The translations under genes were made by a program, and so were the position numbers. Below the pieces are notes generated by a model. It ran no database searches, was not told the origin of the DNA, and saw nothing but the letters and a program-made list of their open reading frames with translations. Source: Myxococcales bacterium (lineage in GTDB: Bacteria; Myxococcota_A; Polyangia; Polyangiales; Polyangiaceae). From it: DNA of 64,000 nt. Positions 26,960-60,736 of the stretch are shown one piece after another; positions within the stretch are counted from its first letter, which is position 1; the number at the start of each line of letters is the position of its first letter. Where the stretch lies: positions 1-64,000 of the forward strand of contig CAHJWM010000013.1 in assembly GCA_903642325.1 (NCBI GenBank), read 5' to 3'.

Positions 26960-27340
26960 TCACGGGTACTCGCCGTCGAGTACGACGACGGCGGCGGCCA
27001 CGCCTGCGTCGTGGGTGATCGAGACCAAAATGCGACGCACGCCCAAGCGCTCGGCGTGGGCCCGACCGGCGCCCAAAAACTCGAGCTGCGGAGCGCCCCG
27101 CGCATCCGGAAGAATTTCAACGTGTTGCCACCACACGTCCGGCTGTCCACCCAGCGCCTTTGCCGCCGCTTCTTTGGCCGCAAAGCGACCCGCGAGCACC
27201 AACGCGCGATCCGCTCGGCTGGCCAGATCAGCGCGCTCATTTTCGGTCAAAACGCGCTCCCAAAGGCGATCCCCGAAGCGCTCGAGCGCGTGCCGAATGC
27301 GCTCGACCGACGCCACGTCGATGCCCAGGCCGACGATCAT
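26960..27340 (-). CDS. acpS: Holo-[acyl-carrier-protein] synthase
   Basis: Transfers 4'-phosphopantetheine from CoA to a serine of acyl carrier proteins. The 126-residue protein has GLGIDVASVERI at the N-terminus, LAGRFAAKEAAAKALGG with the conserved metal-binding glutamate, and the C-terminal SITHDAGVAAAVVV. It lies 7 bases after pdxJ, a common pairing. It could also prime the ACP domain of the acyltransferase fusion about 4 kb away, but that is inference. Confidence 0.95.
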   Translation of the reverse strand: MIVGLGIDVASVERIRHALERFGDRLWERVLTENERADLASRADRALVLAGRFAAKEAAAKALGGQPDVWWQHVEILPDARGAPQLEFLGAGRAHAERLGVRRILVSITHDAGVAAAVVVLDGEYP

Positions 27341-27347
27341 CGGCCGT

Positions 27348-28088
27348 TCAAGCCCGGGGCCGCCGCTCTGCCAATCCGCGGTGAACGGCGGCGCGCAGAT
27401 CGCGCACGGCGCGATCCATACCGACGAGCACGGCGTCACCGATCACCGAGTGGCCGATATTCAGCTCGACGAGCTCCGGGATGGCCGCAATCTCGAGCAC
27501 GTTGAAACGTGTCAGACCATGCCCCGCGGCGACTTCCAAGCCTAGACCGTGGGCGAGGGCAGCGGCGCGCTGCAGACGAACGAGCTCTGCCGCGCGTTCG
27601 CTGCCGCTCTTGTGGCAGTACTCACCGGTGTGAAATTCGACCTGAGCCGCGCCTAGCTCCGACGCCAAGCGAACCTGCGGTTCGTCCGGCCCGATGAAGA
27701 AACTGAGCTTGATGCTGCGGCGCTGGCAGACACGAGAAATCTTTTCGATGGCGACGCGCGTGGCCATGAGATCCAGGCCACCCTCGGTCGTGAGCTCGGC
27801 GCGGCGCTCGGGTACGAGCGTCACCACGTCGGGACCGACGCGATCGGCGATACCGCACATCTCGTCCGTGGCGGCCATTTCGAGGTTGAGCACCGTAGTC
27901 AGGGCGGCCCGCAGCCTCGAAATGTCGTCGTCCTTGATGTGACGGCGGTCCTCGCGCAAATGCGCAGTGATGCCGTCCGCTCCGGCGAGCTCACACAACG
28001 CGGCAGCGGTGACGGGATCCGGATAGAGCGTGCCCCTCGCGTTACGAAGCGTGGCAACGTGATCGATGTTGATGTTGAGGCGAATCAT
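27348..28088 (-). CDS. pdxJ: Pyridoxine 5'-phosphate synthase
   Basis: Condenses 1-deoxy-D-xylulose 5-phosphate with 3-amino-2-oxopropyl phosphate to pyridoxine 5'-phosphate in DXP-dependent vitamin B6 synthesis. The 246-residue protein begins LNINIDHVATLRNARGT and has GADGITAHLREDRRHI, the LVPERRAELTTEGGLD segment and AAGHGLTRFNV, all family hallmarks. Its ATG overlaps the stop of the upstream SUMF1-like gene by four bases. Confidence 0.97.
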   Translation of the reverse strand: MIRLNINIDHVATLRNARGTLYPDPVTAAALCELAGADGITAHLREDRRHIKDDDISRLRAALTTVLNLEMAATDEMCGIADRVGPDVVTLVPERRAELTTEGGLDLMATRVAIEKISRVCQRRSIKLSFFIGPDEPQVRLASELGAAQVEFHTGEYCHKSGSERAAELVRLQRAAALAHGLGLEVAAGHGLTRFNVLEIAAIPELVELNIGHSVIGDAVLVGMDRAVRDLRAAVHRGLAERRPRA

Positions 28089-30883: not shown

Positions 30884-31675
30884 TCAAGCGACTGCGAGCT
30901 GAGCGCGCGACGCGGCAACGACACGAACTAGCTCACCGACCGTCTGCGTCGATTTGATTTCCTGCTCGCTCAGCGCCAGCCCGTACGCCTCTTCGACTGC
31001 CAGCACGATTTTGAGAGAGCCGAGTGAATCCCATTCACGGATCTGCAGCGGTCCGTCATCGGGGCCGGGCGGCGTCGACAGACCGAGCACGCTCATGATG
31101 AGCTTCGGGACTTCGCTCGCTTCCTCGTCGATTGCGCCGACCTCGGGCGAGGCGCGAAGGGCGCGCGCTGGCACGCCGCCAACCACCGAGCCTGCCGCCA
31201 CTCGGCCTGACACGACGCTGCCCCCCTGCACCACGGCGCCGGCGCCAATCACCGAACCGCGAAGCACCGTCACGCGCGCCCCCAGCTTTGCGCCAGCCTC
31301 TATGCTCACCGCGAGCGGCGCATCGATGGCCGAGCGATCGCCCACGACATGGTAATCGCTGTCCATGATGACGGCATAGGGGCCGATTGCCACGTCGTCA
31401 CCGAGCTTCACCTCGAGCCGTGCCGAGATCGCGGCGCCGTACGAGATGCGCACGCGATCACCAATCATGATCCGACCGCCCGCCGCCGCGATCAAATGCG
31501 ATGGCGCCGGACGCGCGCTGAACGAAAAATCGTCGCCGATTTCAAGCCGGCCTCCGTTCACGATGTTGGGCTGGCCGATGAGCTTCGGTGAACGGCCGAC
31601 GCGGTCCGCATCACGCAGCAGGAGATTCGTTCGAGCCGCCCGTAGCCGTTCCAAAATGCTCGAAAGCGACGACAT
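30884..31675 (-). CDS. Left-handed beta-helix acyltransferase fused to a C-terminal acyl carrier protein
   Basis: A 263-residue two-domain protein. Residues about 35-175 are hexapeptide repeats of an LbH acyltransferase (IGDRVRISYGAAISARLEV, IGPYAVIMDSDYH, GARVTVLRGSVIGAGAVV, GGVPARAL); Asp107-Tyr108-His109 sits where such enzymes have the catalytic histidine. Residues about 190-263 are an acyl carrier protein: EWDSLGSLKIVLAVEEAYG, with Ser217 as the expected phosphopantetheine site. Carrier and transferase are thus joined in one chain. The ATG shares one base with the stop of the FkbH gene (TGATG), so the two are coupled. The likely role is moving an ACP-bound acyl group to a sugar or similar acceptor; both the acyl group and the acceptor are unknown. 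Confidence 0.9.
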   Translation of the reverse strand: MSSLSSILERLRAARTNLLLRDADRVGRSPKLIGQPNIVNGGRLEIGDDFSFSARPAPSHLIAAAGGRIMIGDRVRISYGAAISARLEVKLGDDVAIGPYAVIMDSDYHVVGDRSAIDAPLAVSIEAGAKLGARVTVLRGSVIGAGAVVQGGSVVSGRVAAGSVVGGVPARALRASPEVGAIDEEASEVPKLIMSVLGLSTPPGPDDGPLQIREWDSLGSLKIVLAVEEAYGLALSEQEIKSTQTVGELVRVVAASRAQLAVA

Positions 31676-34023
31676 CAGCGATCCCAAATCAGCTCGACGA
31701 CATCCGGAAGCGCGTAGCCTACCGGACCGTCCCAGCGGAACAGCTCATCATCGTAGTTTTGAAAGCCGCTGCGGCAAAATGCGCTCAAACACGGCTTGTT
31801 CTTGGCCGTTTTCACGTACAGCGCTTCGACCTTTGTCGCGCCCGAGTCGAGCGCGCCCGTGACCGCCAAGTGGAGCAACGTCTCTTCGACTTTTCGACCC
31901 ATGACGCGGCAGCTCAGTACGTAGTCGACGATGCGGGCCGAGCCCCCTTCGCTCTCGATACTGACGATCCCAGTGAGACCCGCGTCGCCAAAGCGGTCGG
32001 ACACGCTCACTACCCACAACTTGTGGTTCGGCGCCGCGGCCCAGGCCGTCAGCTCGGCTTCGTTGAGGCGGCGCGTGGACAGGTTCAACTGGTTGGTCTT
32101 ATTCAAAAGCTGGGTCGCGCGCGGCAAGTTGGAGGGGCCGAGCTTCTCGGCGCGGACCTTGATGCCGAGGCTCATCAGCCATTCGTCAATCGACCCGACT
32201 TGCTTCTGCAGATCGTCCCGCTGGCGTTCCTCCGCGTACATGCGAGTGCGGTCGAGATCTTCCTGACTGATGGAAGGTGCATCGAAGCAGCGCAGCTGAC
32301 CGAATGCGCTGGCATAGAGCAACTTGTCCTCGGGCCATTCGGGAACGAACACCTCTGGCAGCGCTTCTCGGACCCGTGCCCGCTCCACCGGATTATCGTC
32401 GATGAAGACCACCGACTGCAGGCCCAAGTTCAGATCCTTGGCCAATTCCACGATATTTTGCGCCTTGTCCGACCAGTTGATCCGCCAGCCGACGAAGTCT
32501 TCTTCCTTGAGCACCATTTCGGGATGACTGCGGATGGCCTCGATTGCGACGGACTCTTCATTTTTGCTGACGAGCGCTAGGACCACGCCGCGCCGCTTCA
32601 AGTTCTTGATCGCGCGCTGAAAGTCGGCGAAGGACTCGCCCTGCGGGTCGGGCCCGCCCAGGCGAAGGTTTTCCCACCCTGCATCGCCCACGATGCCGCC
32701 CCACAGCGTATCGTCGAGATCGAGAACTAGAAGCTTCTTCGCGGCGCCGCGCAAGCCCATGAACGCTGCACGAATGTCGGCCGCGGCTTCGCGCATGACG
32801 CTTCGTGGCAGCGCGACCTTGCCGAGGTACCAGCCGCGCGGGTTATGACCCGTGCGCCCGGCGCCGAGCAGCCAGCGCTGGGCGTCCAACACGAAGACGT
32901 TCGGCGCCGCCTCGAGAGCTTCCATCAACTGCAGGTTCAAAGACGTCAGTACGCGTGTCACGCCGTTCGGACGACTGTCGGCCATGCCGCGACCGCGGAG
33001 CCAGCCGGGCTGAACCCAGGTGGGCACGAACACGGCCTTGTAACCAGCCGCTGCACGCAGAATCAAGGTTGCAAACTGCGCGAGCTCGGCGGCAAGCTCG
33101 GCCGGGTTCACGTCTTCGTACCCGATTACACGGGCAAAAGACGGGACCGAAACTTCGGGCCGCGTCCAAACAACCACGAAATCCGAAGCGTCATTGGCTG
33201 GCGGGTGCATCAGCGACTGCATGACCTGCCCATAAGGCGCGACCTCCGCGGCCAGCGGCGGTAGCCCGATGGGTGATAAAAGCTCGTCCACAAGCTCATC
33301 CACGGTGAAGTCGGAAATGAGCGTGCCGCGATGCGCAGGCAGCTCGACCGGCGCTGGTACGGCCGCTGCCGCGCCGGGGACGTGGCCGTTGCCCTGGGCG
33401 CCCGCATCAGAGTTTGCTGGCGGGCCATGCCCGTCCACCCAGCGCAGCACGCGCGCCGGGATACCGCCGGCCACCGCGTTGGCTGGGATATCGCTGCTGA
33501 CCACGCTGCCGGCCGTGATCACGGCACCAGCGCCGATCTTCACCCCCGGCGCCACGGTTACGCGACCGGCGAGCCACGCGTTGTCGCCGATCTCGATCGG
33601 CTGTGGTTCTGCGCCCACGCCCTCACCGGGTAGCGAAGTATCACTGATGATGCAGTGCTGACCGATCATCACGTGCGATCCAATCCGAACCGAGCGCGCC
33701 GCAGAAATGACGCTGCCGAAATTGATCCACACATCGTCCCCGAGCTCGATGCTGCCGCCGGGCGTGGTCAGGAGCTCCGTGGGCAAGTACCTGGCGAGCG
33801 CCGAAAACCCGCCCCCGATGCGAATTGCGCCGGCATTTTCCACGCGCAAAGATCCGTTGACGCGAGCGCCGGGCCCTACCTGCGTGCAAGTGCGGAGCGC
33901 GAGCTGGGCCGTCGCAGTTTCAGAGAGTAACGTGATGCCGCGCCTCACCCGAAGGTGAAGCGCTACGTCTTTGTCGCGCGACATGCCGCGCACGACTTTT
34001 TCGAATAAGCCAATAGCTGCCAT
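31675..34023 (-). CDS. LbH-FkbH fusion: HAD-IIIC acyl-loading enzyme with an N-terminal hexapeptide domain
   Basis: A 782-residue protein with several domains. Residues about 50-195 are hexapeptide repeats (GARVNGSLRVENAGAIRIGG ... GVKIGAGAVITAGSVVSSDIPANAVAGGIPARVL). In the loop after CIISDTS no His follows, so this helix may be noncatalytic. Residues about 235-430 form an FkbH-type N-terminal region, then the HAD-IIIC domain with DLDDT (Asp435, Asp437) and LWGGIVGDAGWENL, SKNEE and FIDDNPVERARV. The last ~200 residues are the FkbH C-terminal GNAT-like part. FkbH enzymes take 1,3-bisphosphoglycerate, dephosphorylate it and load glyceryl onto an ACP for methoxymalonyl units. Here no polyketide synthase is nearby and the ACP is in the next gene. 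Confidence 0.9.
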   Translation of the reverse strand: MAAIGLFEKVVRGMSRDKDVALHLRVRRGITLLSETATAQLALRTCTQVGPGARVNGSLRVENAGAIRIGGGFSALARYLPTELLTTPGGSIELGDDVWINFGSVISAARSVRIGSHVMIGQHCIISDTSLPGEGVGAEPQPIEIGDNAWLAGRVTVAPGVKIGAGAVITAGSVVSSDIPANAVAGGIPARVLRWVDGHGPPANSDAGAQGNGHVPGAAAAVPAPVELPAHRGTLISDFTVDELVDELLSPIGLPPLAAEVAPYGQVMQSLMHPPANDASDFVVVWTRPEVSVPSFARVIGYEDVNPAELAAELAQFATLILRAAAGYKAVFVPTWVQPGWLRGRGMADSRPNGVTRVLTSLNLQLMEALEAAPNVFVLDAQRWLLGAGRTGHNPRGWYLGKVALPRSVMREAAADIRAAFMGLRGAAKKLLVLDLDDTLWGGIVGDAGWENLRLGGPDPQGESFADFQRAIKNLKRRGVVLALVSKNEESVAIEAIRSHPEMVLKEEDFVGWRINWSDKAQNIVELAKDLNLGLQSVVFIDDNPVERARVREALPEVFVPEWPEDKLLYASAFGQLRCFDAPSISQEDLDRTRMYAEERQRDDLQKQVGSIDEWLMSLGIKVRAEKLGPSNLPRATQLLNKTNQLNLSTRRLNEAELTAWAAAPNHKLWVVSVSDRFGDAGLTGIVSIESEGGSARIVDYVLSCRVMGRKVEETLLHLAVTGALDSGATKVEALYVKTAKNKPCLSAFCRSGFQNYDDELFRWDGPVGYALPDVVELIWDR

Positions 34024-34110: not shown

Positions 34111-37100
34111 TCAGTCGCCGTCGCCCGAGATACTCCAATCCTCACTGGCGGACTCGCCCTTCGGGCTCGGCAGAGGTTCACCGCTCGGGCCGTCGCGGCG
34201 CACGATCATGGTCGTGCGGGTGGCGCTGTCATCGCTCTCACGGGCAACGACGGTGATCACGTTGATGCCTGGTTGAAGCTCGGTATCGATTGAGAACTTG
34301 AGCTTGGTCGGATCGGCGGCCTTGCGGTTCGACTGGTAAAAAACCTTGCGCGGACCCACGAAGATGAATGCATCGAGCACGCGGTCGCCGTCGGTGGCCT
34401 GTCCCTCGATATGCACTTTGTCCTCACGTGTGGCGAGCTTCGCCGGCGTCACTTCCAAGAGCGGTGGAGAGTGCGAAAGATGGGCGTGATAACCGACTTT
34501 GTCGGCGACCTGGGCGCTGTCTTTGACCGTGCGCGTTTCGACGAAACCAAAACGCTCCTCCCCCAGATTCACCTTGGTGAAGGCCCCGAACGTACCTAGC
34601 TTTTCGAGCAGGCTACCCTTGTCGACCTCTCCGACCACCGCGGCGGCAGCAAGTGGCTGACTGCGCACCGGCGCTGCCCCTGAAAACGAGACTTTGCCCT
34701 GCGCTTTGCTGATCGTTAGCGGGCTCTTGGCCAGCGGCAACGTGACCTTCTCGGTCGACACCACGCGTAGCTCGCGATCGGCGACACTGAGCTCGAAATT
34801 CACGTTACTTTCACTGAGCTGATCGAGAACGTCGAACGTGAAGGCGACATTCTTCACCTCATTGGGCTTCATATTGGAAATGTCGAACCGACCGTTGTGG
34901 ATCAATAGGCCGTCACCGGTCAGGTTGCGGATATTGGCCTGCGTGTCGTACGAGCGGCCCTTGCCTACGTTCTTCACGGCCAAATACACCGTGGCACCCT
35001 CGCCCTTGGCGAGCTGGCCGTCGCCATTGCCCGGACGATTGTCGACGATTTGGTAATTGTACGCAAAAATCGGCTGCGGCAGCGCGTTCAGGGTAGGACG
35101 TAGCTCGGCGTCGGGCGGCGCTTCGCCGCCTTCCGCGAAGAAGCGCACTTTCACCACGTCGGCGCGGGCGTCGGCTTCCAGCGGTACTTTGCACACGCGC
35201 TTGGCGTCGTTCGGCGTGGGGGCACTCGAGCCCGGTTTGTGCCCGTCGACGTCACAGAAGCCGAGCGGCGCGCTCGCCGTCTTGGTTTCACCTGGCAGGA
35301 TCTTGCCGAACGCGAACTCCTTCTCGTCGTAGTACGCGCCGTCACTCTTGGTGCTGGCGCGCACCTGATACGCCGGGCTCGAGCCCTTGTTCCTGACCGA
35401 GACTTTGAGCATCACTTGGTCGCCAGCGGCGAATGTGTCGCTCGGCTTGTCTGTGCCGACCTTGACCTCGTAATCGCTGGCCTTTGGCGGAGTCGCATAA
35501 TCCTTGGGCGGCGCCGTCCAATCGACACCGAGCTTGCCAAGGTCCGTGCCCACGGCCTCGACCTCGGTCTGCTGGAGCTTGTCCAAAAAGTCCTTGGCGC
35601 TGTGCACCTCGTCGAGGCGCTTGCCGGGGCTCAAACGACCGACCAAGTCGCGCGCGATCTTGATCGGAAAATCGAGCTCGAACTCGTCTTCCATATCTCC
35701 GCCGCGCTCGCGTATCTCGGCGCGCTCTTTCTCCGGCAGGTTGTAGCGCAAGCGCACGGTGGGCTGATCGTTCGCGCGAGTTGCGGTGTTGGACAAGCTC
35801 TTGGTCAAGTCGCGCTCGCGCAAACCATGGGCGTTGCGATAGAGATCCATCTCGACCGTATCGGCCGTCATCGGATCGAGCTCGATATCCGGCGCCACGC
35901 CAACCCCCTGAATCGACACGTCGCCTGGCGTCAGATATTGCGCGATCGTCAACTTCAGCGCCGCGTTCTCCGGCGTCACGTGTGGGAACACCAACTGCAC
36001 GCTGCCCTTTCCGAACGTGGTCTGACCCACAATCACCGCTCGATCCAAATTCTTGAGCGCGCCAGCCACGATCTCGCTGGCACTGGCCGAGGAGCCGTTG
36101 ACGAGCACGACGATCGGGTAGTTCGGCTCGGTGCCCTTGCGCACGGCACGCTTCTCCTCGCGGCCCTCGGACGCGCCGACCGTGGCCACGATCACGCCGT
36201 CGTCCAGAAATCGATCGGCGACGCGCGCCGCTTGATCGAGGAGGCCCCCGGGGTTGCCGCGCAAATCCAAGACCAAAGCCCTGAGCTTCTCTTTCTTGTG
36301 CAGATCAGCGAGGGCTTCGTCCAACTCGTCCGAGGTACTGGCTTGAAATTGCTTCAAGCGCACGTAGCCAACGCCGTTGCCTAGTCCCCGGTAGTCGACC
36401 GATTTGACTTGAATTTCTTCGCGTACGAGCTCGAACGGGCGGGACCCTGTCCAACCCTCCGCGGCGTCACGATGCACCCAAATCGTGACCTTCGAACCAG
36501 GATTACCGCGCAGACGGTTGACCGCGTCGTCTAGAGGCATATTCAGGGTCGACTCGTTGTTGATTTTGGTGATGCGGTCGAGCCGCTTCAAGTTGGCCCG
36601 CCCGGCGGGGGTGCCCGGCATGGGGCGCATCACCGTCAGCATCTGGTCGCGCACGGAGATCACGATGCCGAGACCACCGAAATGGCCGGACGTGGACAGG
36701 TTCATCTCTCGATACGCTTCGGGGCTCAGAAACGTGCTGTGCGGGTCGAGGGTGCGTAAGATCCCGTTGCACGCGGCGTACTCGACATCACGGAGGTCGA
36801 CCTCCGTGTCCTTGAGGTTCGCCTGCAAGAACGCAAATACTTCGCGCAGGCGCGCAGCTACATCCCAGGGGCCTTGCACGTTGTCGATATGAAATGAAGC
36901 CGATTCGGTGTCGACCTGCACCTTCACGGTGTTCGACTTGTCGTCGTGCAAGACGATCACTTGCGCGACTTCTTTCTGAATCTCGTTCACCGCGCTCAAG
37001 AACATCTGCCGGGGCTTGACGCGACTCGGGTCCACGTACTTGGTACGGATGGTGTTCAGCGTCTCGTTGACGGCGACGAGCTGCGTCAGATCATAGGGCG

Positions 37101-37248
37101 CCTTCGGCTGGCCAGGGCTAGTGACGGCGTGCGCCACTTCCAAACCGCGCCACAAACCCCCCGTGCCGAACTGCAGCGCAAAGTAGGACGCCAGCGCAAA
37201 CACGGACAGCACTACCAGCGCCCGACCAAGGCGCGGAAGAATTCGCAT
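34111..37248 (-). CDS. S41-family C-terminal processing protease with a large C-terminal extension
   Basis: A 1045-residue exported serine protease. The signal anchor is at about 10-28; the PDZ domain (FGGLGIVISVRDQMLTV) is at about 185-270; the S41 core follows with LRGNPGGLLDQA, NGSSASASEIV (catalytic Ser389) and GQTTFGKGSVQ (Lys414). CtpA/Prc-type enzymes usually stop near 450-700 residues. The remaining ~550 residues hold beta-sandwich-like segments (KNKGSSPAYQVRASTKSDG; KNVGKGRSYDTQANIRNLTG) and an SH3-like segment (VGEVDKGSLLEKLGTFGAFTKV), probably for substrate or envelope binding. ATG 37248 was chosen because the signal anchor begins there. Confidence 0.9.
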   Translation of the reverse strand: MRILPRLGRALVVLSVFALASYFALQFGTGGLWRGLEVAHAVTSPGQPKAPYDLTQLVAVNETLNTIRTKYVDPSRVKPRQMFLSAVNEIQKEVAQVIVLHDDKSNTVKVQVDTESASFHIDNVQGPWDVAARLREVFAFLQANLKDTEVDLRDVEYAACNGILRTLDPHSTFLSPEAYREMNLSTSGHFGGLGIVISVRDQMLTVMRPMPGTPAGRANLKRLDRITKINNESTLNMPLDDAVNRLRGNPGSKVTIWVHRDAAEGWTGSRPFELVREEIQVKSVDYRGLGNGVGYVRLKQFQASTSDELDEALADLHKKEKLRALVLDLRGNPGGLLDQAARVADRFLDDGVIVATVGASEGREEKRAVRKGTEPNYPIVVLVNGSSASASEIVAGALKNLDRAVIVGQTTFGKGSVQLVFPHVTPENAALKLTIAQYLTPGDVSIQGVGVAPDIELDPMTADTVEMDLYRNAHGLRERDLTKSLSNTATRANDQPTVRLRYNLPEKERAEIRERGGDMEDEFELDFPIKIARDLVGRLSPGKRLDEVHSAKDFLDKLQQTEVEAVGTDLGKLGVDWTAPPKDYATPPKASDYEVKVGTDKPSDTFAAGDQVMLKVSVRNKGSSPAYQVRASTKSDGAYYDEKEFAFGKILPGETKTASAPLGFCDVDGHKPGSSAPTPNDAKRVCKVPLEADARADVVKVRFFAEGGEAPPDAELRPTLNALPQPIFAYNYQIVDNRPGNGDGQLAKGEGATVYLAVKNVGKGRSYDTQANIRNLTGDGLLIHNGRFDISNMKPNEVKNVAFTFDVLDQLSESNVNFELSVADRELRVVSTEKVTLPLAKSPLTISKAQGKVSFSGAAPVRSQPLAAAAVVGEVDKGSLLEKLGTFGAFTKVNLGEERFGFVETRTVKDSAQVADKVGYHAHLSHSPPLLEVTPAKLATREDKVHIEGQATDGDRVLDAFIFVGPRKVFYQSNRKAADPTKLKFSIDTELQPGINVITVVARESDDSATRTTMIVRRDGPSGEPLPSPKGESASEDWSISGDGD

Positions 37249-37417
37249 GCCGCCAGTATAGCTCGCCGTTCGGCCTATTTCAGCGTTCGCTGGCGGCCAC
37301 ACGTCGTTCCGCTCGACGGTGCTTTATTCCCAGATTTGCTTGGTTATCCAGTCGTTCCCGGCGCCGTCGCCTTTTCAGGCCTAGCGCGACAATTTCCGAT
37401 TTATCGCTGGCAGCTCT

Positions 37418-49969: not shown

Positions 49970-50965
49970 ATGAACGTGCTCGTCACGGGAGCTTGCGGAT
50001 ACATCGGCTCGCACGCGGTGCGCTGCCTGCTGAAGGCGGGGCATCGCCCAATCGCGCTCGATAACCTGAGCCGCGGACATCATGAATCACTTCCGGCTGG
50101 AGTTCCTTTCGTGAAGCTCGACATTCGGGACACCGACGCACTGGCGGATGCCCTCAAGCAGCACTCCATCGAATGCGTGATGCACTTCGCAGCCTTCGCC
50201 TACGTCGGCGAGTCGGTCGAACAGCCGCTGGTCTATTACGACAACAACACACGCGGTACGCTGAGCTTGTTGCAGGCGCTGGACCGGGTGGGCGTTCGAC
50301 GCCTCGTGTTCAGCTCCACCTGCGCGACGTACGGCGAACCCGAGACCATGCCGATTCACGAGCAGACTGCACAGCAGCCGATCAACCCATACGGCTGGTC
50401 CAAGCTCTTTTCGGAACGCATGTTGTTCGACTATGCCGCTTCGAAACCAACGTTTGCATTCGCCGCACTGCGCTACTTCAACGTTGCGGGCTGCTCGGCA
50501 GACGGCGCCATCGGCGAAGATCACCACCCGGAGACTCATTTGATCCCGGTTATTCTGCAGACGAAGCTGGGCCTACGGGAAAAGGTCACCATCTTCGGCG
50601 AAGACTACCCAACGGACGACGGGACCTGCGTCCGCGACTACATACACGTCGAAGACTTGGTGGAAGCGCACGTGCAAGTCGCGGCTGTGCTCGAGCCGGG
50701 AGCAAAGCTCGTGTACAACCTCGGCATTGGGCGAGGCTATAGTGTCAAGCAGATCGTGGAAGTCGCACGGAGCGTCATCGGTGAGTTCCGCGTAGATTCC
50801 GGGCCCCGACGCCCGGGGGATCCACCCAAGCTTTACGCAGACGCTAGCAAGATCGAGCGCGATGTCGGATGGGTCGCTCAACGCACCGACATCAGAGCCA
50901 TGATCGAAAGCGCGTGGCGCTGGTTCGAGCACCACCCTCGTGGGTACGCGGCGCGCGGCGCGTGA
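49970..50965 (+). CDS. galE: UDP-glucose 4-epimerase
   Basis: Interconverts UDP-glucose and UDP-galactose. The 331-residue SDR has the NAD motif TGACGYIGS, the CVMHFAAFAYVGESV segment, SSTCATYG and the catalytic YGWSK (Tyr/Lys), and VRDYIHVEDL. A strong ribosome site (AAAAGGAG) precedes ATG 49970. A TTGACG at 49901-49906 with a weak -10 17 bases on may be its promoter. Confidence 0.95.
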   Translation: MNVLVTGACGYIGSHAVRCLLKAGHRPIALDNLSRGHHESLPAGVPFVKLDIRDTDALADALKQHSIECVMHFAAFAYVGESVEQPLVYYDNNTRGTLSLLQALDRVGVRRLVFSSTCATYGEPETMPIHEQTAQQPINPYGWSKLFSERMLFDYAASKPTFAFAALRYFNVAGCSADGAIGEDHHPETHLIPVILQTKLGLREKVTIFGEDYPTDDGTCVRDYIHVEDLVEAHVQVAAVLEPGAKLVYNLGIGRGYSVKQIVEVARSVIGEFRVDSGPRRPGDPPKLYADASKIERDVGWVAQRTDIRAMIESAWRWFEHHPRGYAARGA

Positions 50966-51148
50966 AGGCCCTCGCTGAGAGCACGCTCGCCTTACGTAAC
51001 GGTTAGCGGACTCCTGCTCGCCTCGCTGAAATGCTTCTGAAATGCTCGTCTTCGAGCAACACACGCCGGCGCTCGATCGAGCAAAGGACTTCGGCCGCAG
51101 TTTGACGGCGCACTCGCTTGTGTTGTACTGGCTATAGAAGCGGCCTTC

Positions 51149-52090
51149 ATGACCAATAAAATCCTAGTCACTGGCGGCGCAGGCTTCATCGGTTCTCATC
51201 TATGTGAACGCCTCGTGAACGCCGGCCAAGATGTCTTGTGCGTAGACAACTACTTCACCGGCTCGAAGAAGAACGTCGCACATCTACTCGACAATCCACT
51301 GTTCGAGGTCGTGCGTCACGACGTGACGATCCCGTTGTACGTCGAGGTTCAACGCATCTTCAATCTGGCATGCCCGGCGTCTCCCGTGCATTACCAGTTC
51401 GATCCCGTTCAGACGACCAAGACCAGCGTCCACGGCGCGATCAACATGCTCGGCTTGGCCAAGCGCGTCAAAGCGCGCATCCTGCAAGCATCTACTTCCG
51501 AAGTTTACGGGGACCCTGAGGTTCACCCGCAGCCGGAGTCGTACTGGGGCAAGGTCAATCCAATCGGCATCCGCAGCTGCTACGACGAGGGCAAACGCTG
51601 CGCCGAGACCCTATTTTTCGACTACAATCGTCAGCACCAAGTCGACATCAAAGTGATGCGCATTTTCAACACGTATGGTCCGCGCATGAATCCGAACGAC
51701 GGGCGCGTAGTTTCGAACTTCATCGTGCAAGCCATTCGTGGCGAAGACATCACCATCTATGGCGATGGCAAGCAGACTCGTTCGTTCTGCTACGTCGACG
51801 ACCTCGTCGAAGGCATGCTGCGGTTGATGGATACCGAAAGCGGGTTCACGGGCCCGGTGAACATCGGTAATCCAGGTGAGTTTACGATGCTGGAGCTGGC
51901 CGAGAAGGTGATTCAGTTCGTCGACACCAAATCCAAAATCGTGCATCGGCCTCTGCCTCAAGATGATCCGCGTCAGCGGAAGCCCGACATTGGGCTCGCG
52001 CAATCGAAGCTCGGCTGGCAGCCGCAGGTCCAGTTGGACGACGGACTGAAAGAGACGATTTCGTATTTCCGGCGCGTCCTCGCGGCGTGA
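51149..52090 (+). CDS. UDP-glucuronate decarboxylase (UDP-xylose synthase)
   Basis: An SDR of 313 residues that converts UDP-glucuronate to UDP-xylose. It matches the UXS subfamily: [67 protein letters not shown] with Tyr/Lys, and [18 protein letters not shown]. Its substrate is supplied by the UDP-glucose dehydrogenase that follows it by 66 bases, so xylose is a probable component of the polysaccharide. Confidence 0.93.
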
Positions 52091-52120
52091 AGCGACCGTC
52101 CCTCTCCCGATTGAGCATTG

Positions 52121-52151
52121 TTGCAATCCGAATGAGAGTCCGGTAATTAAT
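52121..52151 (+). promoter_or_regulatory. Candidate promoter in an AT-rich patch before the UDP-glucose dehydrogenase gene
   Basis: TTGCAA at 52121-52126 and an AT-rich stretch GTAATTAATTTAG ending just before ATG 52157 stand out in GC-rich sequence. The hexamer matches are only partial and the 5' leader would be very short. Confidence 0.25.
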
Positions 52152-52156
52152 TTAGC

Positions 52157-53479
52157 ATGAGGTTGGTAGCGTTCGGAGTCGGCTACGTGGGTTTGGTTAC
52201 CGGTACGGGGCTGAGTGAGCTCGGCCACGATGTCCTGTGTGTAGACGTGAACGCTCAGCGCGTTGCGGATCTCCATAAGGGGAAGATTCCGATCTACGAG
52301 CCAGGTCTGTCCGACCTGGTGCGTCGCAACGTGACGAGCAAACGGCTCACGTTCGAGACCCAAGTCGACGCGCCGTACAACGAAGCCGACGTTTATTTCA
52401 TCGCCGTCGGAACGCCGCCGGGCGAGGACGGCTCAGCGGACGTCAGCGCCGTCTTCGCCGTCGCGAACAAGATAGTCGAGATAGCAAAGCGTCCCGCTTT
52501 AGTTGCCATGAAGAGCACGGTACCGGTCGGCACCTGCGACAAAGTGCAAGCGATCTTGGATAACGCCAAAGTGCGGCTAGAAGTCGTGTCCAACCCCGAG
52601 TTCTTGAAAGAGGGCACGGCGGTGGAAGACTTTTTCAAGCCGGACCGCATCGTCGTCGGCGCGCGCAGTGAAGAAGCCAAGCAAAAGCTGCGCGAGCTGT
52701 ACGCGCCGCTCCAGCTTTCCGGGGACCGCATGGTGATCACCGACCCTCGCTCCAGTGAGCTCATCAAGTATGCCTCCAACACGGCCTTGGCCATGCGCGT
52801 GTCGTTCATGAACGAGCTATCGCGCCTGTGTCACGCGACCGGCGCGGATATCCATGCTGTGCGCTCTGGGATGGGCTCCGACTCACGCATCGGCCGCCGC
52901 TTTCTATATGCGGGCCCAGGTTACGGCGGTTCTTGCTTCCCGAAGGACGTGCAAGCGCTCGCCATGCTCGGGCGTTCGCATGGCGTCGAGATGGTGCTCG
53001 CCGAGTCCACCCACCGCGTAAACGAGGCCCAGGCTGTCTTTTTGATGTCGCTCGTCGAAGAAGGTCTGGGCGGCAATCTCGCCGGTCGCACCGTTGCGCT
53101 CTGGGGCCTTTCGTTCAAGCCGGAGACGGACGACGTGCGCGAATCACCGTCGATCAAGGTGACGGAAGCGCTGCTCTCCAAGGGCGCAAAGGTCGTCGGC
53201 CATGATCCCGAAGGCAGCGCAAACTTCGCCGCGCATTTTGGCGACCGAGTGAGGGTCACGGAGGCCGACTACGACGCCTTGGAAGGTGCCGACGCCTTGA
53301 TCCTATTGACGGAATGGCGCAGCTACCGCGCGCCGAACTTCGGTGAGATCAAGCGTCGCATGCGGTCCTCGGAGCAGCTACCCCTGCTCCTGGATTCGCG
53401 CAATATCTGGCGCCCGCAGGACATCGTCAAGGCAGGCATGCGTTATCAGGGCATTGGCATCCCGCCTTACCAAGCGTGA
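52157..53479 (+). CDS. ugd: UDP-glucose 6-dehydrogenase
   Basis: Oxidises UDP-glucose to UDP-glucuronate with two NAD+. The 440-residue protein has the N-terminal Rossmann motif GVGYVGLVTG, TPPGEDGSADVSAV, the SNPEFLKEGTAVEDFFKPDR segment, KYASNTALAMRVSFMNE and the catalytic cysteine in GPGYGGSCFPKDV. Its stop overlaps the GTG of the next gene. The product feeds the upstream UDP-xylose synthase. Confidence 0.96.
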   Translation: MRLVAFGVGYVGLVTGTGLSELGHDVLCVDVNAQRVADLHKGKIPIYEPGLSDLVRRNVTSKRLTFETQVDAPYNEADVYFIAVGTPPGEDGSADVSAVFAVANKIVEIAKRPALVAMKSTVPVGTCDKVQAILDNAKVRLEVVSNPEFLKEGTAVEDFFKPDRIVVGARSEEAKQKLRELYAPLQLSGDRMVITDPRSSELIKYASNTALAMRVSFMNELSRLCHATGADIHAVRSGMGSDSRIGRRFLYAGPGYGGSCFPKDVQALAMLGRSHGVEMVLAESTHRVNEAQAVFLMSLVEEGLGGNLAGRTVALWGLSFKPETDDVRESPSIKVTEALLSKGAKVVGHDPEGSANFAAHFGDRVRVTEADYDALEGADALILLTEWRSYRAPNFGEIKRRMRSSEQLPLLLDSRNIWRPQDIVKAGMRYQGIGIPPYQA

Positions 53480-54558
53480 GCGCCAAGGTCTGCTTCTTGA
53501 TGGAGCGCCAAGTGGGGATCGGGAGCGCCGCTGCGGCACTCGAGCCTTATCTGAAGGCCAAACCCGAGGTCACGTGGGCGGACATCACCTACGTCAAGGC
53601 TGGCGGTCTGATCGAAAAGATTCCGCTCCCCGGTCGAGTCGGAGGAACACTGCGCGGCTTTCTACAGTCGACCGCTGCTCTACGAAGCGGCCCATACGAC
53701 GCCTTGTTCTTTTTGACTCACAACCCTGCAGTACTGCAACAACGTGCGTTGGCCCGCACGCCAACGCTGCTCTGGACCGACGTTACGCCAGCGCTACTCG
53801 ACGCGCAGGCCGACCAGTATGCTCACGCCGTCGACAAGTCACGGCTAGCCCGTTTCGCGAAGCAGGGACTCGTCAAGCGCACCTTTCAGCGCGCCAAGCT
53901 CTGCGTTGGCTGGTCGGAGTGGGCTCGCGGTTCGTTCATCGAGCACTATGGCGTGCCGCGTGAACGAACGGCGGTCGTACCCCCGGGCATCGATCTTACT
54001 CGATGGCGAATCCCCGAGGACCGCGCTCGCCGCGGTTTGCCGCGGTTACTGTTCGTTGGCGGTGATTTCGAGCGCAAAGGCGGGAAGCTGCTGCTCAAAG
54101 TCTTCCGTGAGCACCTCCGGGACAAATGCGAGCTAGACGTCGTGACCCGAGATCCGCTTGCCGAAGAGCGAGGGGTCAAGGTTCACCGAGGCCTCATGGC
54201 GGGCGGCGCCGAGCTACTCTCGTTGTATTCGGGAGCAAGCGTGTTCGTGTTGCCGACGCGGGGAGACTGCTTTTCCATTGCCTCATTGGAGGCAATGGCG
54301 ATGGGCCTGCCTGTCGTCGTTTGCGACGTGGGGGGCATTTCCGAGATCGTCGAACAGAGTCAAACCGGATATCTGATCAAGCCCGATGACGGCGGCGCTT
54401 TACGGGAAGCGCTCGAGTCATTGATTGGAGACGACGAACGCCGCCTCGCGCTCGGCCAACGCGGGCGGCAGCGAGTCGAGCAACATTTCAACGCATCCTC
54501 CAACGCCAACGAGCTACTCGCACTATTGAATCAGATCGCTCGGGAAAACAGGCCCTAG
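53476..54558 (+). CDS. Family 4 glycosyltransferase
   Basis: A 360-residue GT-B enzyme, predicted retaining. The C-terminal domain has VVPPGIDLTRW, LLFVGGDFERKGGKLLLKVF, VFVLPTRGDCFSIASLEAMAMGLPVV and GGISEIVEQSQTGYLI, the donor-binding part of GT4 enzymes. GTG 53476 overlaps the dehydrogenase stop, so it is in one operon with ugd. It is a close paralogue of the gene at 56929-57969. Donor and acceptor unknown; UDP-xylose or UDP-glucuronate made here are natural candidates. Confidence 0.9.
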   Translation: MSAKVCFLMERQVGIGSAAAALEPYLKAKPEVTWADITYVKAGGLIEKIPLPGRVGGTLRGFLQSTAALRSGPYDALFFLTHNPAVLQQRALARTPTLLWTDVTPALLDAQADQYAHAVDKSRLARFAKQGLVKRTFQRAKLCVGWSEWARGSFIEHYGVPRERTAVVPPGIDLTRWRIPEDRARRGLPRLLFVGGDFERKGGKLLLKVFREHLRDKCELDVVTRDPLAEERGVKVHRGLMAGGAELLSLYSGASVFVLPTRGDCFSIASLEAMAMGLPVVVCDVGGISEIVEQSQTGYLIKPDDGGALREALESLIGDDERRLALGQRGRQRVEQHFNASSNANELLALLNQIARENRP

Positions 54559-54570
54559 CCGACCCGTCCG

Positions 54571-55764
54571 TCACTCGGATGGCCCTTCACGTTCCGTGCG
54601 AACCCAACTAGAGGTCGGGCGAGCGGGGCGTCGAAAGCGCAGTGTCGCCTTCCAACCGACGTAGGCCGGCGCGAGGCCAAGGTCGAGCAGGCCGCGTAGC
54701 CCGGTCCTGGATACGGTCCAACCGCGTAGAACGTACAGGATGACGGCCAAGACACAGAATGAAAAGGGGCCGGCCGCAGGGGCGAGTCGCTCGGACCAAA
54801 AGGACAACATCCCGGCACATAGTAGGCCCAGCACGGATAGAACGGCGACGCGCGACAGCGGCGGAATCAAAAGATCGAGCGCAAGGTCGATCAACACCCG
54901 ATCTCGATGCGCACACCCTTTGCGAAGCAAACGAGTAGCGTTCCCTCGCACGAGGGCTCTTCGGCCTTCTTCCCAGCGCCGACGTTGCGAAGTTGCGGCT
55001 GAGGCGCTCGACACCATTTCGCCGTAAACGTGGGCTTCGTCAGTATAAAAGACTCGCTCACCTGCTTCCCCCAAGCGCAGGCCGTATTCGACGTCTTCCA
55101 CGATCGAATAGGCCTCATGTGGAACTTTGGCTAAAAGCGAGGCGCTGAAGCACATACCGTTGCCCCGTAGGCCACAGGACAATGATAGGCGCTCGCGAGC
55201 CCTCGAGCGCACGATATGGAAAGACCCAAAGGCGATCGAGATGAGCCGTGTTCGCCAAGAAGCGTTGGGATTGCGGACGGCGTAGTCCGCTTGCACTGCG
55301 TTCGCTCCCAGGTCCCGCCGCGCGGCGAACGCGCGCACTAGGTTCGGGGAGATCAGCGTGTCGGCGTCGACTACGATTACCGCGTCCACCTCCGACGGAA
55401 GCGACGAAAAAGCGAGGTGCAGAGCATAGCCTTTGCCCCGTCGTTCGGCGTCCTTGCGCTCCATCACGATGGCTCCCGCCGAGCGGGCTCGCTCGGCGGT
55501 GTCGTCTTCACAGTTGTCGGCGACGACCACCACATCGAAGAGCGACCGAGGATAGTCGGCCTGAAGCAGACTTTGGACGGTCGCCGCGATGCAAACACTC
55601 TCGTTGTGCGCCGGAACCACGAAGCGAAAGCGCCGATGGAGGGGGGCCGACTCGACGGGTACCGGCAACTTCCCGGACAGCAAAGTAGCCAATAACAGAT
55701 AGCCTGTCATTAGCGTCACCGGAACGCTCAGCAGGAGCAAAATGTAGTTTAGAAAGACATTCAC
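54571..55764 (-). CDS. Family 2 glycosyltransferase, membrane-bound
   Basis: A 397-residue processive-type GT2. There is an N-terminal helix, then the GT-A domain with VVPAHNESVCIAATVQSLL, VVVADNCEDDTAERAR, VVDADTLISPNLV, EDVEYGLRLGEAG and QRRRWEEGRRALV, followed by C-terminal helices. Motifs resemble cellulose/N-acetylglucosaminyl transferases. The start is GTG 55764, which overlaps the stop of the phosphatase-family gene (GTGA), so the two are coupled on the minus strand. Its stop is 12 bases from the convergent GT4 stop. Confidence 0.9.
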   Translation of the reverse strand: MNVFLNYILLLLSVPVTLMTGYLLLATLLSGKLPVPVESAPLHRRFRFVVPAHNESVCIAATVQSLLQADYPRSLFDVVVVADNCEDDTAERARSAGAIVMERKDAERRGKGYALHLAFSSLPSEVDAVIVVDADTLISPNLVRAFAARRDLGANAVQADYAVRNPNASWRTRLISIAFGSFHIVRSRARERLSLSCGLRGNGMCFSASLLAKVPHEAYSIVEDVEYGLRLGEAGERVFYTDEAHVYGEMVSSASAATSQRRRWEEGRRALVRGNATRLLRKGCAHRDRVLIDLALDLLIPPLSRVAVLSVLGLLCAGMLSFWSERLAPAAGPFSFCVLAVILYVLRGWTVSRTGLRGLLDLGLAPAYVGWKATLRFRRPARPTSSWVRTEREGPSE

Positions 55765-56837
55765 TGCCGCACTCCGATATCAGCGACCACGCAAAGATGA
55801 TCAGAAACACCGGCGCAGCCGATTTGAAAGGATGCGAACCGGAGTTGATCACTAACTAAGATGCGGTCGAGACGTAGGAACGGATGGTCGCCCGGAAAAG
55901 TGTAGCCAAAACCCGAACTTGCGGCTTGAAACCCATCTTGATACTTGGAGAGCCACTTACGATAAACGGCACTCAAGCCCGGAAGATTAGTGTCGCCGGC
56001 GATTAGCACCGGGAGCTGTTCGCGGGCCGCGCCGCCCGCGGCCTCGGCGATCTGCAGCGAGCGAAGTGTGGCGTTGCTTCCGACTTCGGCTTCTGGATCG
56101 CCGGCCAACAGCTGCCCAGTACGAAGCTGATGGAACGCTTCCCGGAACCGATGCAAGTGAAGTACGCCTCGCGGGGAGAGCGGATGCACGCAGTAAACAG
56201 CCACGGAACCAAGCGGAGTCTCGAGCACGTAGCGCATGAACCGAGGCGACCGCACCCGACCGTAGAAAGGCACTCGATCCGGGTCGGTGACGGCAGCAAT
56301 GCGAAATTTGCTAGCGACGATGAACTGCGTAGACGCTTCGACGAACCGAAAGCGAGCTCGCAATAAATCCGGCAGCTCACCGCCCCATGGCGCCTCTTCC
56401 AAAAGTACGACGTCGGGCGAGAACCCCGTCACCTTCTCGAGGATCGCGCGCGCGCCGGAATATCCCGAATTCACGTTCAAGGTAAGGACGCGAATCGTGT
56501 GTCCGAGCGGCGCTGACGGCCACGGCGCGACGAACCCCATCAGCGGAAACACCACCAAGATCGCCGCCGCGACCTGCGTCCAAAGTAAACGATGCGGGCC
56601 GAATAACCAAAGCAGGCCGGCGAGGAAGGGCAGCGGCAGGGCCAGTGCGACGCGTGGGACGTAGAGAGCGGCGGCGGTGACCCACCAGCTTTCGCCAATG
56701 TAGTAAAGCGCGGCACACGAGACCGCGAGGAGGGTTAGGTAGAGGAACGCGCACGCGCTGACGGCCGAGCGAAGCCAGCGGCGTGACCAAGACGACGGCG
56801 CTCTCGAGGCCTGCTTCGGTAGTGCAGTTATAGACAT
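55761..56837 (-). CDS. Membrane protein with an endonuclease/exonuclease/phosphatase-family domain
   Basis: A 358-residue protein: three N-terminal hydrophobic segments (about 20-115) followed by an EEP-fold domain with VLTLNVNSG, PDVVLLEEAP, VYCVHPLSPRG, LIAGDTNLPG, FLRLDRILVSD and GVSDHLCVVADI, which include the Asn, Glu, His, Asp-x-Asn and C-terminal Asp-His catalytic positions of this fold. The domain is probably periplasmic. Coupling to a GT2 suggests hydrolysis of a phosphodiester on a lipid or sugar phosphate rather than DNA, but this is inference. Confidence 0.88.
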   Translation of the reverse strand: MSITALPKQASRAPSSWSRRWLRSAVSACAFLYLTLLAVSCAALYYIGESWWVTAAALYVPRVALALPLPFLAGLLWLFGPHRLLWTQVAAAILVVFPLMGFVAPWPSAPLGHTIRVLTLNVNSGYSGARAILEKVTGFSPDVVLLEEAPWGGELPDLLRARFRFVEASTQFIVASKFRIAAVTDPDRVPFYGRVRSPRFMRYVLETPLGSVAVYCVHPLSPRGVLHLHRFREAFHQLRTGQLLAGDPEAEVGSNATLRSLQIAEAAGGAAREQLPVLIAGDTNLPGLSAVYRKWLSKYQDGFQAASSGFGYTFPGDHPFLRLDRILVSDQLRFASFQIGCAGVSDHLCVVADIGVRQ

Positions 56838-56888
56838 GGTCGCCCGCTGGCGTGTTTGAGGAGCTGATCCTTGATGTGCGAGCCAGCG

Positions 56889-56907
56889 ACGGGTTAGCAT
56901 AACCCGT
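56889..56907. promoter_or_regulatory. Perfect 19-bp dyad ACGGGTTA-GCA-TAACCCGT in a divergent promoter region
   Basis: Two perfect 8-bp arms flank a 3-base centre, 21 bases before the GT4 start at 56929 and about 51 bases before the minus-strand operon start at 56837. Size and position suit an operator for a dimeric regulator acting on both directions. No second copy is obvious by eye in the window. There is no T run, so it is not a terminator. Confidence 0.6.
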
Positions 56908-56928
56908 GAATCTTCCCGACGTCGCCAA

Positions 56929-57969
56929 ATGAGCAACCGACCGATTGCCTACGTGATGGAGCAGACGCTCGGCAGCGTCACCCACTATAAAAACTTGCGA
57001 CGCGAAGATGACGTCGTGCCGAACGACCGTCCGCGTTGGCTACCGATCGAATATCGCCCGAGCAAAATGCCTTGGACCGTGACCGGAAGCGCGCTCGCAC
57101 GCCGTGCCTTGCGCCCGTTGCTCACGCAGATCGACGGCATTTTCGTGCACACGACCACACTGGCCCCGCTCTCGTTCGATTATTTTCGCCGTAAGCCGAC
57201 GGTTATTTCTAGCGATGGCACGCCGCTCAACAAGCGCATGATGCGCGAGGCCTACGGGCTGAAGCCAGAGGGCAGGCTCGCTCGGCAAGCCAAACAGCGT
57301 CTCTTTCGAGAGCTATTTGCGCCTTGCACCGGCTTCGTCGCCTGGTCCAGCTGGACAAAACAGTCATTCGTCGAAGATTACGGCTGTCGCGAAGAGGACG
57401 TGGCCGTCATTCCGCCCGGCATCGATCTGACCCAGTTCTCGGTTGGCGAGCGTGAGCACGAGATCCCTCGCATTCTATTCGTCGGGGGCGATTTTCGTCG
57501 CAAGGGTGGCGACCTCCTGCTCGACGTGTTTCGCCGTCGGCTCAAAGGGAAAGCCGAGCTCAGCCTGGTGACTCCGGCTGAAGTTGCCGATGAGCCCGGC
57601 GTTCGAGTGCATCGAAACTTGTCTTCGATATCACCTGAGCTTCACGAGCTGTACCGTACTTCCGACATTTTCGTGCTTCCCACCCGCGCGGACTGCTACG
57701 CGCTCGTCTGCATGGAGGCGCTAGCCGCCGGGCTCCCCTTAGTGACCACGCGTGTCGGCGGTCTCGCCGACATGGTTCGCGAAGGGGAGACAGGCTACTT
57801 GATGGACGTCGACGATGGAGACCGCTTGGGCGACAGCCTGGAAGCATTGATCGCGAACCCCGACTCGAGGCGCGCCATGAGCCAAAATTGCCGAGCTGAG
57901 GCATTGAAGCGTTTTTCGACTCGCGAGAACGCGAGGCAGCTCTTCGAGTTCGTGCGATCGCGCTGCTGA
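56929..57969 (+). CDS. Family 4 glycosyltransferase (paralogue of 53476-54558)
   Basis: A 346-residue GT-B enzyme with VIPPGIDLTQF, ILFVGGDFRRKGGDLLLDVF, VFVLPTRADCYALVCMEALAAGLPLV and GGLADMVREGETGYLM. The C-terminal half aligns without large gaps with the other GT4 here, so the two arose by duplication. It is divergent from the GT2/phosphatase pair and carries its own promoter region with the 19-bp dyad. Confidence 0.9.
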   Translation: MSNRPIAYVMEQTLGSVTHYKNLRREDDVVPNDRPRWLPIEYRPSKMPWTVTGSALARRALRPLLTQIDGIFVHTTTLAPLSFDYFRRKPTVISSDGTPLNKRMMREAYGLKPEGRLARQAKQRLFRELFAPCTGFVAWSSWTKQSFVEDYGCREEDVAVIPPGIDLTQFSVGEREHEIPRILFVGGDFRRKGGDLLLDVFRRRLKGKAELSLVTPAEVADEPGVRVHRNLSSISPELHELYRTSDIFVLPTRADCYALVCMEALAAGLPLVTTRVGGLADMVREGETGYLMDVDDGDRLGDSLEALIANPDSRRAMSQNCRAEALKRFSTRENARQLFEFVRSRC

Positions 57970-58222
57970 CGGCGCATGCGGTAAGGGCCCGCGGGTGGCT
58001 CGTCGGTCCAACGGTTCCCGCGCTCTTCTGGTTTCACGATATGGCTGAAAAAAGCGTTCGCGGTCTAGCCCTTGGTCTCGGTTCGCGCGGCGCCTCGCCA
58101 CCGTCGGCGCGGCCGCTTGCTCCGGATAGGGTGGCGGTAGTACGACTCATTTGGCTATCGGGGCCTGATCTGCTCGTGCTCAAACCTGCGACAAAGCAAA
58201 GCCGTGCGTTGCAAGCGGCGGA

Positions 58223-59626: not shown

Positions 59627-59669
59627 AGTGCAAGGCCGAATGGCCTGCGACGCGCGGCGTAGCCGAGCG

Positions 59670-60167
59670 TCAGACGCTGACCGGTAACATATCGGCTCGA
59701 AAGACCGCCGTGCCTAAAAAGTGTTCCTTGCCGATTTTCGTGACTGTCTCTCGCGCGCCCGCTGAGGACATGTGCTCGAGGAGCACGCACAGAACGGCAT
59801 AGTCTGCAGATTGTGCCAAGGAAATGCTGACCGTCGACTGGCTCACCGGCGCGAGCGCTAGCAGCACGAGGTCACCCTGTTCACGGTAGCGCTGTACCTC
59901 TTCCTTGAAACCTCGCACATTGGACAACTGAATTCGAGTCGCGTCCGCGACCTGGATCGGCGTGCCTAAGTGCGTCATGCCAGTGCGCGCCAGGGCAACC
60001 GCCACCGTGAGTGCAAAGTCGGGCGCTGACCCTGCCGCGGCTGGGCAAATGGCAAGGCAGTTCCAAGAACGTGCCTGCACGGCCAACCACAACTTTTGCC
60101 ACTCGGCGTCGCGCCACGGCTCGATGGGCGCTTGATCTCTCAGCGCAAGCGGGGCGGGGGCTTTCAT
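59670..60167 (-). CDS. Degenerate P-loop NTPase-like protein (BY-kinase/CpsD-like) lacking Walker A
   Basis: About 165 residues from ATG 60167 (upstream starts at 60215 and 60320 are possible). The order of elements recalls the BY-kinase/ParA fold of capsule regulators: WQKLWLAVQARSWNCLAICP as strand 1, a helix TVAVALARTGM where the helix after Walker A would be, then LVLLALAPVSQSTVSISLAQSADYAVL resembling the Walker A'/B region. But where GxGKST is expected there is AAAGSAPDF, so ATP binding is improbable. It is in the polysaccharide locus. A regulator or scaffold is more likely than a kinase. The family assignment is by pattern only. Confidence 0.55.
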   Translation of the reverse strand: MKAPAPLALRDQAPIEPWRDAEWQKLWLAVQARSWNCLAICPAAAGSAPDFALTVAVALARTGMTHLGTPIQVADATRIQLSNVRGFKEEVQRYREQGDLVLLALAPVSQSTVSISLAQSADYAVLCVLLEHMSSAGARETVTKIGKEHFLGTAVFRADMLPVSV

Positions 60168-60723: not shown

Positions 60724-60736
60724 TCGGCGCGTATGA

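Follow-up and report, generated by a model that had tools for sequence, protein, structure and literature searches.

The window analyzed here is a stretch of 64,000 nucleotides from a Myxococcales bacterium (GenBank assembly GCA_903642325.1, positions 1 to 64,000 of contig CAHJWM010000013.1, here C13), and our subject is a pair of overlapping genes on its minus strand that may encode a complex for loading and transferring an acyl group. Gene 1 (31675..34023) encodes a protein of 782 amino acids of the FkbH type, a predicted glyceryl loader, and gene 2 (30884..31675) a protein of 263 amino acids, in which a left-handed beta-helix (LbH) domain is followed by a C-terminal acyl carrier protein (ACP). 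The two genes are coupled by a TGATG stop-start overlap of one base (31673..31677). Given this overlap, gene 2 most likely begins at the ATG at 31675-31673, resulting in the 263 amino acid product, and not at the TTG at 31687. The GC content at third codon positions (GC3) is 0.77 for gene 1 and 0.74 for gene 2, and the codon bias of both is typical for genes of the window. A first-pass annotation made from the sequence alone had described two overlapping genes, an LbH domain fused to an FkbH-type HAD-IIIC enzyme with intact DLDDT, and an LbH acyltransferase fused to an ACP with a DSL serine. All three descriptions hold: both open reading frames (ORFs) are present with coding-like GC3, and profile searches recover the predicted domains.

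The product of gene 1 is composed of an LbH domain (residues ~45-195; 33442..33876), a linker, an SGNH-like region (231-425), a HAD-IIIC domain (428-580) and a GNAT-fold domain (587-780). The FkbH profile TIGR01686 matches residues 428-756 over profile positions 2-321 of 323 and scores 306 bits, more than twice its curated cut-off of 146.65, and hexapeptide repeats (Hexapep, PF00132) are detected at 8e-10. HAD motif I, DLDDT, which carries the nucleophilic Asp, occupies residues 435-439 (32707..32721). In an alignment of 31 FkbH rows, HAD motifs I-IV and the SCR motif of gene 1 are all intact, and the HAD residues D435, D437, T439, S486, K487, D542 and D543 as well as S704-C705-R706 of the GNAT-like domain (31906..31914) are invariant in every row. 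The Cys of the latter motif may serve as an acyl relay residue. The structures of the single proteins were predicted, as the first-pass annotation had proposed. In the AlphaFold model of gene 1 (mean predicted local distance difference test score, pLDDT, 68), a disordered linker separates the LbH domain from an SGNH-like alpha/beta region, after which come the HAD and GNAT-fold domains; the PDB entries that it matches best are 3slr (an FkbH homologue, N-terminal part) and GNAT enzymes.

Gene 2 likewise contains hexapeptide repeats (PF00132, 2e-9), and its LbH domain spans 31154..31597. The PP-binding profile (PF00550) scores 21.9 bits against a cut-off of 20.8. The carrier serine Ser217 (31025..31027, numbered on the 263 amino acid product) lies in W215-D216-S217-L218-G219, which is invariant in a five-row alignment. 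The AlphaFold model (mean pLDDT 62) combines a beta-helix with a helical bundle; ACPs rank best among its PDB matches, and none of the first 50 is an LbH structure. An AcpS is encoded in the window, and the genome holds two further phosphopantetheinyl transferase (PPTase) candidates. The acpS gene, coding for the housekeeping PPTase, stands beside pdxJ at 26960-28088 on the minus strand, 3 kb from the pair.

In LbH acetyltransferases, the catalytic loop His and a conserved Trp are supplied by adjacent subunits, the Trp having been described for enzymes that use acetyl-CoA (PMC3046976). Aligned to maltose transacetylase (2ic7), the LbH domain of gene 1 retains the Trp (Trp150, in DNAW) and lacks the loop His (SDTSLP). 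Aligned to NeuO (3jqy), the LbH domain of gene 2 carries the His (D-Y-H109) and lacks the Trp (EAGAKLG). Thus, both proteins have the hexapeptide-repeat fold, and neither of them unites both residues in one chain, as enzymes of the NeuO/GAT type do; we refer to the two domains as the Trp-half and the His-half. These alignments confirm that the first LbH domain is without an obvious catalytic His and that the second one has a D-Y-H motif. To the first-pass annotation, this distribution had suggested that one helix is structural and the other catalytic. The distribution of the His stands, yet two complementary halves are more likely than a structural helix beside a catalytic one: the domain without His keeps the Trp that a neighbour supplies in known enzymes, and the His-bearing domain has lost it.

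The same split occurs in all seven LbH-FkbH operons and in unfused tandem LbH pairs at seven other loci (L035, L106, L038, L040, L109, L112 and L138). At L109 (2719-4044), the His-half has a C-terminal extension that, by eye, resembles a family 2 glycosyltransferase. Among 116 surveyed LbH domains, 73 have both residues, 27 only the His, 15 only the Trp and one neither; the loci were drawn using profiles of the gene pair's own domain family, so these proportions are not population frequencies and the point of the survey is the absence of mixed pairs. Indeed, 17 same-strand neighbour LbH pairs comprise 14 complementary and three complete-complete ones and no mixed type, and a His-only partner lies beside 14 of the 15 Trp-only domains. 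Random pairing of the labels yields p = 2e-7, or p = 0.009 if only three tree groups and three controls are counted. The LbH tree places the Trp- and His-halves of the pair's family as sister clades (16 rows, support 98/96) next to complete His and Trp enzymes, the pattern expected from a duplication after which each copy lost a different residue. Two more groups of split pairs branch elsewhere in the tree. Among the FkbH fusions, mean identity is 53% for the Trp-half, 55% for the GNAT domain and 18% for the linker. The Trp-half is thus about as conserved as the GNAT domain and the linker poorly so, which argues that this half is no decaying passenger.

The genome holds exactly two FkbH proteins, both of them in LbH-FkbH/LbH-ACP pairs on C13; the first-pass annotation mentions neither the second pair nor the SGNH-like and GNAT-fold parts of gene 1. 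The second one (L034:8331-10685, corresponding to C13:87831-90185) lies 55 kb away and is 57% identical to gene 1 over its length. It overlaps its own LbH-ACP gene (L034:10672-11454), which is 39% identical to gene 2 and retains WDSLG and DYH. This paralogous pair is directly followed by one of the PPTase candidates mentioned above, of the Sfp type (L034:11451-12146), and then by a 625-residue protein with two alpha/beta hydrolase domains, which matches exosortase-A hydrolases 1 and 2 with scores under the curated cut-offs. The paralogous pair sits in a Wzx/Wzy-type polysaccharide cluster that starts at ~49.97 kb inside the window. The cluster encodes an NAD-dependent epimerase, a GDP-Man-dehydratase-type epimerase, a UDP-sugar dehydrogenase, glycosyltransferases, a polyprenyl sugar transferase and a WecG-type enzyme, together with EpsX-like and EpsV-like proteins, an O-antigen ligase/Wzy domain, Wzx and a GH44 protein. 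Window positions 49970-63351 plus L033 and L034 make up a large Wzx/Wzy exopolysaccharide (EPS) cluster related to myxobacterial EPS clusters. As the paralogous pair lies within the cluster and the window pair ~16 kb from its start, we regard the latter as a satellite of the cluster. The window pair itself is flanked by an S41 protease of the MXAN_5808 type and a nucleoside phosphorylase, and an RlmC/RlmD-like methyltransferase is also adjacent. The protease gene (34111-37302; TIGR03900, 1107 bits) is located immediately upstream on the same strand.

One scan of named genomes returned seven related loci at 51-56% identity. Outside this genome, LbH-FkbH fusions are present in two Pseudomonadota metagenome-assembled genomes (MAGs; L046, L047), an Anaeromyxobacter MAG (L048), a Deltaproteobacteria MAG (L049) and a member of the Sorangiineae (L052). 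At all five loci, the gene after the fusion encodes an LbH protein with an ACP-type tail (at L049, 10099-10830). The search for the same two-gene arrangement that had been suggested for Myxococcota thus yielded five further loci, in Myxococcota and Pseudomonadota, near polysaccharide genes: Wzy (42%) and Wzx (38%) at L052, Wzy, GH44, EpsV and Wzx homologues at L048, WecG and family 2 glycosyltransferase (GT2) genes at L046 and L047, and a priming transferase and GH44 at L049. At L050 (Dehalococcoidia) and L051 (Omnitrophota), an unfused FkbH follows a free ACP, with sugar genes nearby. In the FkbH tree, all LbH-FkbH fusions group together with a support of 99/99. Their clade is nested in a larger one of ten rows (100/100), at a great distance from FkbH proteins fused to nonribosomal peptide synthetases (NRPS) or thioesterases. 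A wide occurrence of the pair in Myxococcota was considered and rejected: close fusions are found in 2 of the 318 genomes of the class at 1e-120, and matches to A1 at 1e-90, which come from 15 of the phylum's 379 genomes, for the most part span the FkbH part alone. Two other arrangements were observed among FkbH proteins. L081 (8863-16117) has a stand-alone FkbH, and two ORFs beside it are relatives (33% and 30%) of the double hydrolase encoded after the paralogous pair. At L088 (2549-6631), one protein of 1360 amino acids combines FkbH, ACP and thioesterase with a family 2 glycosyltransferase, which likewise hints that sugars receive the products of FkbH.

Split LbH pairs are also found without FkbH. 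At L035 and L106, the genes upstream encode an NAD-synthase-like protein, a TIGR03108-like amidotransferase, an exosortase-type AMP ligase (TIGR03098, 1e-147, under the cut-off) and a small ACP with a VDSTG motif, which at L035 has 99 amino acids; an alpha/beta hydrolase gene comes after the L035 pair. With an XrtA-type amidotransferase and two unfused LbH halves, the operons L035:8165-15809 and L106:1696-8254 appear to represent a parallel acyl-decoration pathway. In a distant Myxococcota genome, a split pair lies near genes for NAD synthase and ACP (L138:404-3601). A carrier-bound acyl donor would therefore be common to several split pairs. Judging from gene content, FkbH is one of two loaders seen with split LbH pairs, and the loaders appear to be exchangeable.

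FkbH enzymes load glyceryl from 1,3-bisphosphoglycerate and dephosphorylate it (PMC7489565; PMC10099666). We propose that a PPTase would convert Ser217 of gene 2 into the holo-ACP, onto whose phosphopantetheine the FkbH part of gene 1 would load glyceryl, most likely from D-1,3-bisphosphoglycerate and with removal of the phosphate. Since each LbH domain has lost a different catalytic residue, the two domains probably have to pair in order to provide one working site. The paralogous LbH domains would co-assemble, and at their interface gene 2 would contribute His109 and gene 1 Trp150 to a composite site within reach of the ACP arm. Extrapolating from the adjacent subunits of known enzymes (PMC3046976), a trimer built from two kinds of chains would be expected to contain exactly one His-Trp interface, and hence one composite active site per trimer. 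The acyl group would finally be moved onto a sugar in a surface polysaccharide or its precursor, with a hydroxyl or amine as the accepting group, as the genomic context suggests. Glyceryl as the acyl group and a glycan as the acceptor are supported by family and context, respectively, and we infer that the two proteins probably work only as a hetero-oligomer, with the active site split between them. That the pair is such a self-contained loading and transfer complex for surface-polysaccharide decoration is the reading we favor, tentatively and with slightly less than an even chance. Much the same degree of belief, just short of even, applies to the wider proposal of a recurrent hetero-oligomeric type of LbH acyltransferase, in which paralogous subunits hold complementary half-sites, activity needs both, and here one half is joined to the glyceryl loader and the other one to the carrier.

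The best-known role of FkbH enzymes is in polyketide, methoxymalonyl-ACP or tetronate pathways. No ketosynthase or FabH is encoded on C13, however: FabH matches occur only on C7 and C34 and ketosynthase matches only on C7, C10, C19 and C53. The methoxymalonyl-ACP set, in which two dehydrogenases and an O-methyltransferase accompany FkbH and ACP, was not found in the scanned neighbourhood of the pair, nor does the pair adjoin the FabH-like ring-forming enzyme and polyketide synthase of a tetronate glycerate-utilisation operon. The relatives of the pair sit in a polysaccharide context, and the fusion clade is separate from NRPS-type FkbH, so homologues do not always belong to polyketide clusters. 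A polyketide or tetronate role was accordingly rejected on gene content and is very improbable. The profile scans agree with the first-pass annotation, which had pictured two coupled genes that provide a stand-alone loader together with its carrier and an acyltransferase, and had seen no polyketide synthase, O-methyltransferase or dehydrogenase; FabH is likewise absent nearby. The module might instead load a small acid other than glycerate if the substrate of its FkbH has changed; the clade is divergent from NRPS-type FkbH and the substrate is not readable from sequence. Against this speaks that the HAD and GNAT residues invariant across the 31 FkbH rows, NRPS- and thioesterase-fused ones included, are all kept, and we consider such a change improbable. 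Only a little more probable is a scenario in which FkbH and ACP make glyceryl-ACP and the transfer falls to another enzyme, e.g., the protein resembling alpha/beta hydrolases in the C13 cluster, the LbH pair being a scaffold or using another donor. The double hydrolase after the paralogous pair, the two such ORFs near the stand-alone FkbH of L081 and the hydrolase after the L035 pair would be in line with this idea. However, no homologue of the double hydrolase is found beside the window pair or in L046, L047, L048, L049 and L052, and the LbH domains jointly hold the canonical catalytic residues.

The strongest competing view is that gene 2 forms a homotrimer which needs no partner, i.e., an ordinary ACP-dependent LbH acyltransferase resembling LpxA or LpxD, with the LbH domain of gene 1 as a structural tether that only docks FkbH. 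LpxA and LpxD are ACP-dependent and have the His and no Trp; the Trp is not required by LbH enzymes whose donor is acyl-ACP instead of acetyl-CoA, so a homotrimer of the His-half could be active by itself. In favor of this view, the Trp was described for acetyl-CoA users and an ACP serves as the donor in the present pair, a His-only LbH domain often stands by itself (no LbH neighbour is detected for 13 of the 27), and free ACPs occur near other split pairs. This view leaves unexplained why the His-less partner retains the Trp in 14 of 14 pairs, why Trp-only domains stand beside His-only ones and practically nowhere else, and why conservation of the Trp-half equals that of the GNAT domain. We rate it as rather unlikely, although clearly ahead of the other alternatives. 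Besides the argument on the Trp, several further points weigh against a composite LbH site in a complex for polysaccharide decoration. The survey loci were selected through the family itself; one common origin of the split survives the approximately unbiased (AU) test (p-AU 0.08 with the Trp halves, 0.09 with the His halves), so that three origins apply to the best tree only; and the partner at L049 has WTSL (T-S-L) where others have WDSL. The window pair lies among housekeeping genes, ~16 kb from the nearest polysaccharide gene, the single-chain AlphaFold models are modest in confidence (62 for gene 2 and 68 for gene 1), and the products of the pair's relatives are putative.

Compared to known systems, gene 1 shares with the FkbH glyceryl-ACP synthases (TIGR01686; Mad7/Mad14 and the vioprolide and corramycin HAD domains, from methoxymalonyl, tetronate and NRPS pathways) the HAD-IIIC and GNAT-like core, the catalytic positions and an ACP partner. 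Unlike these enzymes, it is fused to an LbH domain and is accompanied by no ketosynthase, FabH, dehydrogenase or methyltransferase, and fusions of its kind are found in polysaccharide loci. The homotrimeric LbH O-acetyltransferases NeuO, OatWY, GAT and MAT have the same fold, the same His and Trp positions and glycan-type acceptors, but both residues reside in each chain, whereas in the present pair each of two paralogous chains has one of them, and one chain bears a tethered ACP. Heteromeric LbH oligomers with partly degenerate subunits exist in the gamma-carbonic anhydrases of complex I; these differ in being metal-site proteins of unrelated function, not acyltransferases. The split pairs of L035 and L106 adjoin a ligase and an ACP as in exosortase-A EPS genes (TIGR03098 ligase, ACP, hydrolases 1/2), and the paralogous pair is followed by a hydrolase 1/2 fusion; in comparison, FkbH takes the place of the AMP ligase as loader in the present pair. 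The flagellin glycosylation locus of Campylobacter jejuni contains the fkbH-domain gene cj1302 (PMC7099621), and C. jejuni pseudaminic acid bears di-O-methylglyceric acid (PMC3068675), to which cj1302 may be linked. Like gene 1, cj1302 is a stand-alone FkbH in a glycan locus; it differs in its carrier arrangement and in that no LbH fusion is reported. The C. jejuni case makes glyceryl decoration by a stand-alone FkbH plausible and partly anticipates it; the LbH fusion and the split active site would be new. Literature searches found no paper on heteromeric LbH acyltransferases and nothing on FkbH with O-antigen or lipopolysaccharide, which is weak evidence given the limited library.

The pair gives FkbH enzymes a likely role beyond polyketide and peptide antibiotics, namely on bacterial surface glycans. 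Glyceric acid decorations of such glycans are known, and no loading route for them is described in the literature searched. If the split His/Trp pairs are what they appear to be, they would represent a new path from a classic homotrimeric enzyme family to obligate heteromers and would predict gene pairs that require joint expression.

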